DNA from: Chloroflexi bacterium HGW-Chloroflexi-2
GTDB lineage: Bacteria; Chloroflexota; Anaerolineae; Anaerolineales; Anaerolineaceae
Direction of reading: 5' to 3'
DNA: 64,000 nucleotides
Assembly (NCBI GenBank): GCA_002840735.1
Contig: PHBY01000007.1
Span: 62,001-126,000 of the forward strand
Shown one piece after another: positions 25,529 through 29,416 of this stretch; the stretch's first letter is position 1; every line of letters begins with the position of its first letter. The notes beneath the pieces are model-generated. The model was given only the letters and a program-made list of their open reading frames with translations. It was not told the DNA's origin and ran no database searches. A program made the translations under genes and the position numbers.

Positions 25529-26053
25529 TTAAGGATTTTTTGACTTTGTTTTCAATTGTTTAATATGAGAAATTTCAAGTTCTACAGGTACATATTGATT
25601 AATGAGCATTTTCAATAAAATTCGAACACGATCAGAACCTTCCAATTTGGTATCAAAAATACCTTCATATCCTTCAAATGGACCAAATTCAATAGAAATA
25701 GGCGTACCGCGATTAAACTCATCCTTAATCTCAATCACAGAGTCCTCAGAATCCCCTACTTTTTGTTTCAGTGCATGAATTAAAGACTCAGGAACGATCG
25801 AAGGTTCACCTCCAAAAGCGACAATTCCTTTTGAGTGTGGCATCCATTTAATGGTGGAAGTTCCTATCATCTCAGGCTCAGTTCTAATGAACAGGTAACC
25901 TGGAAAATAGGGACGAATTTTCTGGGAGCGAGGATTAACCGGCTTAACCTTAATTTTTGGATAGAAAACTTCAAATCCCAACAATTCGATTTGTTTGAAT
26001 AAAAGTTGTTCCTTGTTTGGATGGCTTTGAATTACATACCAGCTAAATGACAT
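25529..26053 (-). CDS. NusG-paralogue transcription antitermination protein (RfaH/UpxY/LoaP-like)
   Basis: NGN-like SWYVIQSHPNKEQLLFKQIELLGFEVFYPK...RPYFPGYLFIRT; KOW-like GTPISIEFGPFEGYEGIF. Confidence 0.85.
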   Translation of the reverse strand: MSFSWYVIQSHPNKEQLLFKQIELLGFEVFYPKIKVKPVNPRSQKIRPYFPGYLFIRTEPEMIGTSTIKWMPHSKGIVAFGGEPSIVPESLIHALKQKVGDSEDSVIEIKDEFNRGTPISIEFGPFEGYEGIFDTKLEGSDRVRILLKMLINQYVPVELEISHIKQLKTKSKNP

Positions 26054-27057: not shown

Positions 27058-27199
27058 GTAGAACTGTGTTCTCAGATCCCAATATTACCATGATAAAAAT
27101 AAGAGCATCTCCTTATAAGCTAAAGCATTGTTGATAAGCAAGGGTAATTCAAATATTTAAAACATATAGACAATTTCCAGTAAGTTACTATACTTTAAA

Positions 27200-29416
27200 T
27201 TGATGAATTTTGGAAAACCAGCTTATTTTTCTGATAAAAAATCTCTTCCACCTTTGATTTTGGATAGATTCCTTCCTCCTTATCCATATGGTGCATTATC
27301 CGATATGCTGCGATATTGTGGGATCGAAAAAGGGTGGGTCTTAGATCCTGTGGGAAACCAGCCACTTAGTGCAATTGAATTGGCACAAGCGGGTTACCAG
27401 GTTTTTGTTGCCTGCAATAATCCAATTCTAGGGAAAATTCTACAGGTTATCTGCGCATCTCACCCATTAAGCCTATATCAGGCTGCAATCGCTGATTTTG
27501 GTGCTTTAAAGCGTGGTGATGATCGACTCGAAAACCAGATTAAGGCATTATATGCCTCTCCCTGTCCAGATTGTCTCTCAGATCAAACAGAAGTCAGATA
27601 TCTTTGGAAAAGAAATCAAACAACTCCATTCGCAAGAGAATTAAGTTGTAAAAATTGTGGTCTGACTGGTATTTATAAGATATCTGATATCGAACAAGAA
27701 AATCTTAATCAAGTCGGAAATATCCAATTACATCGCACAAAGGTATTGCAAAGAATATTTCCAGGGATCAATGAACCCCCCATAGCCGTGAAAGAAGTCA
27801 TCGATTCATATCTACCTAGATCTTTGGCTGTTATTTCATCCATTATCAACAAATTGGACAGTTTGCAAACCACAAGCGAAAGAAAAGACATTCTTGAGGT
27901 TTTATTGGTTCATGTATTTGATTATGGAAATATGCTTTGGGGAGTAACATCCAGCAGAAACCGACCAAAACAAATATCAATTCCAGCAGAATTCTACGAA
28001 TTTAATTTATGGAAAATTCTGGAGGAAGCCGTCTCAAGAGTTCGAATTATTGATCGACCAATTCCGTTTACCTTTTACCCCGAACTTCCACCTGAATCTG
28101 GAGGTATCTGTTTTTATCCGTTCAGAATCGGTTCATTTAAAGACATTGAGAAATTACCGCCATTTCAAGGGGTAGCCACTGTACTTCCACGTCCGAATCA
28201 GGCATTGTGGACATATAATGCAGTTTGGAGTGGCTGGATCTGGGGCTATGAGGCTGCTCAAAAATTAAAAGGCGCATTGGAAAGACGCCGGTATGATTGG
28301 ATCTGGCACACACAGGCCATTCGAACTGTGTTTACTTTTACCTCAAAATTAAATGTGCCTTTTTTTGCCATCGCGCCTGAGTTGTCCAATAGTTATATAT
28401 TGGCGTATTTATCTGCCGCATCGTCTTCGAATTACCATTTGAAAAATGCTGCTTACCATCCAGAACAGAAATCTGGTCAATTCTATTGGTATCCAAAACA
28501 ATCAAACATAGATGAAGCATCACATCAATCTTTATCAGCAAATATTAAAAAATACCTGGAATTAAAATGTGAATCAGCAGATTATCAGGAGTTATTGTCG
28601 ATATTTTTGATTTCTGAGACGATCGAAAAAAGAGATTCATTACAGCTCGAAAAGTCTGATAATACGCTTTTTGTACAAACACAAAAATTATTTGAAAAAA
28701 CCATTTTGGACAAAGAAAATTTTATCCAGGTGGATGAAGATCAAATGGAAAATGCGGAATTTTGGTTAAAAGATCCACCGGGTATTTACCAGCCTGTGAG
28801 TGACCAGGTTGAAGGATATTTCATCCGTTTCGTCCAGAATAAACCTTCCTTTACCTTTGAGGAAGTTGCCTATTTCATCAATCAAAATTTACCGGGGTTG
28901 TTGCCGGTTTCTAGTTTTTTCCTTCAACGGCTGATCAGTTCCTATTGCGAACCTCATCCTGATAGTCAACATCAGTATAAATTAAATGCTCAGGAATATA
29001 TTCAGGCAAGAAAATACGACATTCAACAAATGAAACATCTGATCCATTCTATGGGACTAAAACTTGGTTTTAATGTTCAAGGTGATAATCCCATTACCTG
29101 GGTATCAAACCAGATTAATCCGAATTATAAATTTTTTATCACCGCCTCCAGTATCATTTCACAATTTAAATCCAAATCAGAACCTGATGATTTTGAAACG
29201 GTGATAGTCTTCCCGGGTAGTCGTGCAGAACTACTCAGCTATAAATTAAAAAATGACCCTGTTTACCAACAGAATTTCGAAAAATATCATTTTGTAAAAT
29301 ATCGTCATTTACGCACAATAAGTGAAACCCCAGGTATGAATTTCAAAACCTGGGTTCAAATATTGGATTCTGATCCGGCTGTCTGGCAGGAAGCCAACCA
29401 ACCTGTACTGTTTTAG
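27200..29416 (+). CDS. Uncharacterised 738-aa protein resembling a degenerate DNA methylase, with zinc-ribbon-like insert
   Basis: VLDPVGNQPLSAIELAQAGYQVFVACNNP resembles a DPFxGxG SAM site; CPDC-x(27)-CKNCG; LPRPNQALWTYNAVWSGWIWGYEAAQKL resembles a motif-IV region lacking D/N-PP-Y. Confidence 0.55.
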   Translation: MMNFGKPAYFSDKKSLPPLILDRFLPPYPYGALSDMLRYCGIEKGWVLDPVGNQPLSAIELAQAGYQVFVACNNPILGKILQVICASHPLSLYQAAIADFGALKRGDDRLENQIKALYASPCPDCLSDQTEVRYLWKRNQTTPFARELSCKNCGLTGIYKISDIEQENLNQVGNIQLHRTKVLQRIFPGINEPPIAVKEVIDSYLPRSLAVISSIINKLDSLQTTSERKDILEVLLVHVFDYGNMLWGVTSSRNRPKQISIPAEFYEFNLWKILEEAVSRVRIIDRPIPFTFYPELPPESGGICFYPFRIGSFKDIEKLPPFQGVATVLPRPNQALWTYNAVWSGWIWGYEAAQKLKGALERRRYDWIWHTQAIRTVFTFTSKLNVPFFAIAPELSNSYILAYLSAASSSNYHLKNAAYHPEQKSGQFYWYPKQSNIDEASHQSLSANIKKYLELKCESADYQELLSIFLISETIEKRDSLQLEKSDNTLFVQTQKLFEKTILDKENFIQVDEDQMENAEFWLKDPPGIYQPVSDQVEGYFIRFVQNKPSFTFEEVAYFINQNLPGLLPVSSFFLQRLISSYCEPHPDSQHQYKLNAQEYIQARKYDIQQMKHLIHSMGLKLGFNVQGDNPITWVSNQINPNYKFFITASSIISQFKSKSEPDDFETVIVFPGSRAELLSYKLKNDPVYQQNFEKYHFVKYRHLRTISETPGMNFKTWVQILDSDPAVWQEANQPVLF

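Follow-up and report, generated by a model that had tools for sequence, protein, structure and literature searches.

The PglX of type-3 BREX (PglXI) and the zinc-ribbon N6-adenine methylases of the DUF1156 type have been described as carrying an insert after strand 2 (PMC12839542). The bacterial clamp-binding peptide is C-terminal and has the consensus QL(S/D)LF (PMC9690074), and species lacking both NucS and MutS-MutL exist, leaving room for further mismatch-repair pathways (PMC5290159).

The gene analysed here lies in a stretch of 64,000 nucleotides (the window) from Chloroflexi bacterium HGW-Chloroflexi-2. Its family shares with PglXI/DUF1156 methylases the core, the insert after strand 2, the place of the zinc ribbon and the motif order (I, then IV). 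However, it has lost the SAM loop and DPPY, has no BREX partner genes, and is fused to a putative winged helix, a nuclease-like domain and a clamp-like tail. With the FEVEHST/FEVEHTTS proteins (WP_008652084 of pMOL30 and Chloroflexota fusions with an EVE/PUA-like N-terminus) it shares a C-terminal D..W...FEVE domain followed by the same pattern of strands and helices; those proteins keep the acids and have an EVE/PUA-like or other N-terminus, whereas in the window protein the domain is degenerate and sits on a dead methylase. The clamp-dependent mismatch-repair nucleases EndoMS/NucS and MutL may be compared through a nuclease-type domain (in distant members only) and a clamp-type peptide, and replication-coupled nicking serves as a working analogy, but the family has no NucS_C or MutL_C match and its N-terminus is unrelated.

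The gene and its inheritance

The open reading frame at positions 27200-29416 (+) was confirmed, and VLDPVGNQPLSAIELAQAGYQVFVACNNP, CPDC...CKNC, LPRPNQALWTYNAVWSGWIWG and the C-terminal stretch, on which the initial annotation had based its description of a degenerate methylase-like protein, were all present as quoted there. The frame opens with the codons TTG ATG. Translation probably starts at the ATG at 27203, directly after the TTG at 27200, which gives a CDS at 27203..29416 (+), supported by homologues, and a protein of 737 aa (coding stretch in the window, 27203-29413). A sigma-70-like promoter, TAGACA-16-TATACT (27167..27194, +), with 10 of 12 consensus matches, stops eight bases 5' of the ATG; it is suggestive only, such sites being no commoner in the region than in shuffled sequence, and might yield a leaderless or very short-leader mRNA.

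The frame is a real gene under selection, because 111 of the 147 genomes in the window's taxonomic family (and 54 of the 64 good ones) carry an open-frame homologue, nearly always in one copy, and dN/dS for the whole protein is 0.15 against a relative at 90% protein identity and 0.13 against one at 88%. With the same relatives the ratio falls to 0.08-0.09 when the methylase-like half is compared, and to 0.02-0.08 for the segment of the former motif IV. In the whole class, matches occur in 138 of 395 genomes, a count that includes ten weak ones, which are ordinary methylases and not members. Within the window's family, genus g10 lacks the gene in all 12 listed genomes, one of which (G038) is 99% complete; it is also missing in at least one genome of the sister family f2, so some lineages can do without it. 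Almost every other genus of the window's family carries it, so that g10 offers a natural knock-out for comparison.

Judged by sequence, this is a large, vertically inherited family of Chloroflexota that neither Pfam nor NCBIfam contains. Scanned by itself, the window protein matches nothing in Pfam, NCBIfam, PADLOC or PHROGs, and no description of the family was found in the full text of open-access papers, in line with the initial proposal of an undescribed protein family. Beyond Chloroflexota, the search covered plasmids, phages and viral contigs, and bacterial genomes in a single narrow scan, a scope that does not establish the family as Chloroflexota-specific; the viral contigs gave 54 pattern matches and zero relatives.

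A methylase fold without methylase sites

The weak matches at class level turned out to be intact zinc-ribbon DNA methylases with DP(F/M)xGxG and DPP(Y/H/F), and they link the N-terminal half to its ancestry. Using hhalign, the degenerate N-half (A3) aligned with six short intact zinc-ribbon methylases (A4) over 384 columns with a probability of 99.4 and an E-value of 1.9e-21, and the former motif IV, VLPRPNQALWTYNAVWSGWIWG, landed on FTDPPHGNRLPYLELSLMWNSWLG. Longer COG1743-like methylases (A5) aligned with the degenerate N-half at 1.5e-12. Moreover, a distant member (L156) matches Pfam N6_N4_Mtase at 30.0 bits (cut-off 26.7), and a phylum-level profile matches the RsrI methylase in PDB (E 1.2e-5). 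These results support a degenerate zinc-ribbon DNA methylase fold with a homologous Rossmann-type core in the N-half, in line with the repurposed methylase fold that had been suggested from the window alone. An AlphaFold2 run on four sequences was unusable (pLDDT 39, pTM 0.25).

In PADLOC, the models matched by intact relatives include, besides other methylases, PglXI of type-3 BREX; L156 and another distant member (L163) match PglXI more weakly (E 7e-10 and 1e-8), and the window protein does not match it. BrxA and PglZ adjoin one relative, which is haloarchaeal and lies on a plasmid. Plasmid pASPHE301 (L199, 6923-10536) and similar Arthrobacter-type plasmids carry two adjacent genes for related zinc-ribbon methylases and, behind them, genes for an AAA ATPase and for large hypothetical proteins, an arrangement that looks like a defence operon.

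The zinc ribbon is a C4 type (C121, C124, C149, C152; 27563..27658, +), with all four cysteines invariant in the 27 aligned members (A1) and CxxC..CxxC present in 105 of 106 members, and it lies at the same place in the intact methylases. The predicted helical insert (about aa 166-300; 27698..28102, +) is homologous by hhalign to their target-recognition-type insert. Both occupy the position after strand 2, matching the insert described for PglXI (PMC12839542). Matches to zinc fingers in PDB stem from CxxC spacing only and were rejected as an identity, as were the weak and inconsistent Pfam matches of single members to GpA_ATPase, Storkhead and RecO_C.

The methylase sites themselves are degenerate. 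Motif I, LDPVGNQPLSAIE (aa 47-59; 27341..27379, +), as placed by alignment A1 and hhalign, has the same length as DPFxGxG...E and reads DPVGNQP in the window protein. G51 is nearly invariant, giving a loop DPxG-x-x-P with both glycines of GxG replaced. At the end of strand 2, CNNP (aa 71-74; 27413..27424, +) retains the NP and has lost the SAM-ribose-binding acid of DxNP. The former motif IV, TVLPRPNQALWTYNAVWSGWIWG...RRRYDWIW (aa 326-368; 28178..28306, +), is the most conserved segment and lacks (D/N)PP(Y/F); nine of the 25 residues in its block at aa 326-350 are invariant, the highest density in the protein. Since this segment is both the most conserved and under strong purifying selection, the former catalytic site was put to new use and did not simply decay.

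The initial annotation had noted the replaced glycine-rich signature and the missing catalytic motif IV in one sequence, and both extend through the family. The catalytic motif (D/N/S)PP(Y/F/W/H) occurs in none of 106 members, and five have (D/N)PP followed by Arg or Gln (DPPRP, NPPQP), while PRP(N/S) stands at this place in 54. A D...GxG loop is kept by five of the 106, all from one lineage. Homologues with an intact DPFxGxG plus D/N-PP-Y, as expected of an ordinary methylase, were thus not found among the members, and the motif states rule out that identity. We also considered an active enzyme with altered motifs, where methylation or another base-modifying activity would take place in the remodelled pocket. 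The conservation of the former motif IV would suit such an enzyme, as would the five members that keep (D/N)PP and the five others with D...GxG, but the window protein lacks both glycines of GxG, the ribose-binding acid and the entire (D/N)PP(Y/F), and no member among the 106 has both sites intact, which makes an active enzyme very improbable.

In the tree of the N-half, a branch with support 100/100 separates 40 degenerate sequences from 14 intact methylases, and the inner order of the degenerate ones follows taxonomy. A single ancient loss of the methylase sites followed by vertical descent is the likely history.

The C-terminal half and the clamp-like tail

The last 250 residues or so had been proposed as a possible separate domain, and this part of the protein now appears to comprise a winged-helix region and a degenerate nuclease-like domain. 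The former is predicted at about aa 528-620 (28784..29062, +) from weak evidence, namely its conservation in A2 and A8 and weak matches of three members to Pfam winged-helix models.

Behind it lies a degenerate restriction-endonuclease-like domain (29075..29338, +), where PITW...YKFFITASS in the window protein corresponds to D..W...FEVEWTA in distant members. A profile of the last 210 residues finds proteins of 780-1130 aa in other Chloroflexota families, which have the entire architecture in common, with an invariant D..W and, in most, FEVEWTA after it. We read D..W...FEVE as typical of restriction nucleases of the PD-(D/E)XK type, with the ExE variant that BamHI has; the domain is matched by no Pfam model. 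It also occurs in proteins otherwise unrelated to the family. The hypothetical protein WP_008652084 of pMOL30 carries IDAVWLD...AAFEVEHSTSI, and hhalign of A8 against this protein gave a probability of 96.5 and an E-value of 7.7e-10. The catalytic-type pattern D..W...(E/D)x(E/D) is present in 15 of 106 members and absent from the window protein and all Anaerolineales examined. Stand-alone Chloroflexota proteins of about 380 aa (L203-L208, from G609, G696, G164, G449, G555 and G711) also end in a FEVEHTTS nuclease-like C-terminus; their N-terminus reads as EVE/PUA-like, and they are candidate modification-dependent restriction enzymes.

The protein ends in QPVLF (29399..29413, +), at the position of a clamp-binding-like peptide. 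Most members finish with Q-hydrophobic-x-hydrophobic-hydrophobic, for example QLTMFGE, QMMMF, QIAMF, QLALF, QLPLF and QPVLF. Of 105 members, 63 have the strict pattern Q(L/M/I)x(L/M/I/F)F within their final 14 residues, as do 2 among 532 other ORFs of these loci, although the members are related and not independent, which inflates the count; in the bodies of the family proteins the pattern occurs a single time in 81,263 aa. A relaxed pattern is present in 82 of 105, and about a fifth fail. The window's QPVLF is among the weaker versions, failing the strict pattern and deviating from the consensus. On these patterns, the family tail resembles a beta-clamp (DnaN)-binding peptide, and it rather likely binds the clamp.

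The initial annotation had suggested a DNA-binding or regulatory role, and the nuclease-like domain and clamp-like tail, which it had not recognised, would point to replication or repair rather than regulation. The dead methylase could instead have become a DNA-binding regulator or a nucleoid protein, with the hydrophobic tail as an internal packing or dimerisation element; we consider this unlikely, though it is the alternative to which we give most weight. In its favour, the window protein has kept the zinc ribbon, the winged helix and the Trp-rich helix while its two catalytic sites have degenerated, and many regulators are likewise encoded alone, behind a promoter-like site of their own. 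On the other hand, the tail holds a clamp-type consensus after a variable linker, across members that are about 25-35% identical elsewhere, and there is neither a conserved neighbour nor a divergent target gene. A role in replication or repair follows from the clamp binding that the tail suggests, and we regard the chances of this role as even.

Neighbourhood, mismatch repair and proposed role

The absence of a visible partner, pointed out from the window, is general: in about 60 loci, conservation of the neighbours stops at close relatives. In Anaerolineaceae a PBP1a gene runs convergently towards the gene, which is read on its own. PBP1a, a sensor kinase, a NusG-like protein and CPBP were rejected as operon partners, being conserved only within the window's family and mostly on the opposite strand. 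The NusG paralogue (window 25529-26053, -), whose best match is RfaH below the cut-off, is similar to UpxY and LoaP and looks like a specialised antiterminator adjoining the CPBP protease gene.

By neighbour comparison, no BREX partners (PglZ, BrxA and others) are common to the roughly 60 loci, whose neighbours vary between lineages, and no defence or mobile neighbourhood was seen there. These observations bear on a further alternative, a settled chromosomal defence factor, in which a relative of BREX methylases would detect DNA that is unmodified or invading but would not methylate it. The nearest methylases are indeed defence enzymes, distant members match PglXI and the haloarchaeal relative stands beside BrxA and PglZ; in addition, the C-terminal domain is related to the EVE-type plus FEVEHTTS proteins that resemble modification-dependent restriction enzymes. 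However, defence genes are usually patchy and transferred, whereas this gene is single-copy, near-core and vertically inherited, has no defence neighbours, gives no PADLOC match in the window protein and is kept in genomes of 1.0-1.2 Mb. We consider a defence role quite improbable.

A different aspect of the family is seen in a class that contains f65, f77, f86, f88 and f100 (around G577), which we suspect, from its small and streamlined members, to be Limnocylindria. A long form, with a nuclease-like D..W...FEVE in several families and a QLxLF tail, exists in 110 of its 117 genomes (51 of 53 good ones), including 10 of 11 in f86 with genomes of 1.0-1.2 Mb. Families f88 and f100 have Gln or Lys in place of the first acid of FEVE. 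Two streamlined f86 genomes of 1.1-1.2 Mb (L201, L202) have an extremely eroded version of 784 aa, with motif I barely recognisable and AAQLDLGS near the C-terminus. In this class MutS_I was found in none of 24 genomes tested and MutL_C in none of nine, while each is present in 31 of 31 tested elsewhere, a post hoc comparison that may well reflect one ancestral event and is not a statistical association. NucS_C (PF01939) was not found above the cut-off in the tested genomes of the class or in the window's genome, and the family proteins scanned against Pfam gave no NucS match.

The window's genome carries MutS and MutL, and hence its member is not a simple replacement of mismatch repair; a substitute for MutL or NucS was ruled out there. 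For the class lacking MutS, MutL and recognisable NucS, it is conceivable, though more doubtful still than a defence role, that the long form, derived from a methylase-nuclease fusion, sits on the clamp at the core of an additional pathway for mismatch repair or replication errors, and that the form in the window arose later, is non-catalytic and works beside MutS-MutL.

For the window protein, we favour a non-catalytic factor that is tethered to the clamp and binds DNA or acts as a scaffold in replication-coupled genome maintenance, a reading just on the likely side of even; the anatomy and the loss of the motifs, read from the alignments, are very likely correct. In such a mechanism, a relic of restriction-modification would have been domesticated, with a zinc-ribbon methylase fold that lost its SAM loop and motif IV. 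The tail would tether the protein to DnaN behind the replication fork, and the methylase fold, zinc ribbon, winged helix and nuclease-like fold would together form an extended DNA-reading surface, in which the remodelled base pocket (PRPNQAxW...WSGWxWG) may read DNA instead of methylating it. In the window's lineage the protein would be a chemistry-free scaffold or sensor for repair or replication.

If this is true, a defence enzyme has turned into a housekeeping factor, its chemistry lost, and become a near-core, vertically inherited gene of a phylum. What the protein docks on can be tested at once through its clamp-like tail. Since the long form is near-universal in a class where MutS, MutL and detectable NucS are missing, the possibility of additional mismatch-repair pathways (PMC5290159) would become testable.
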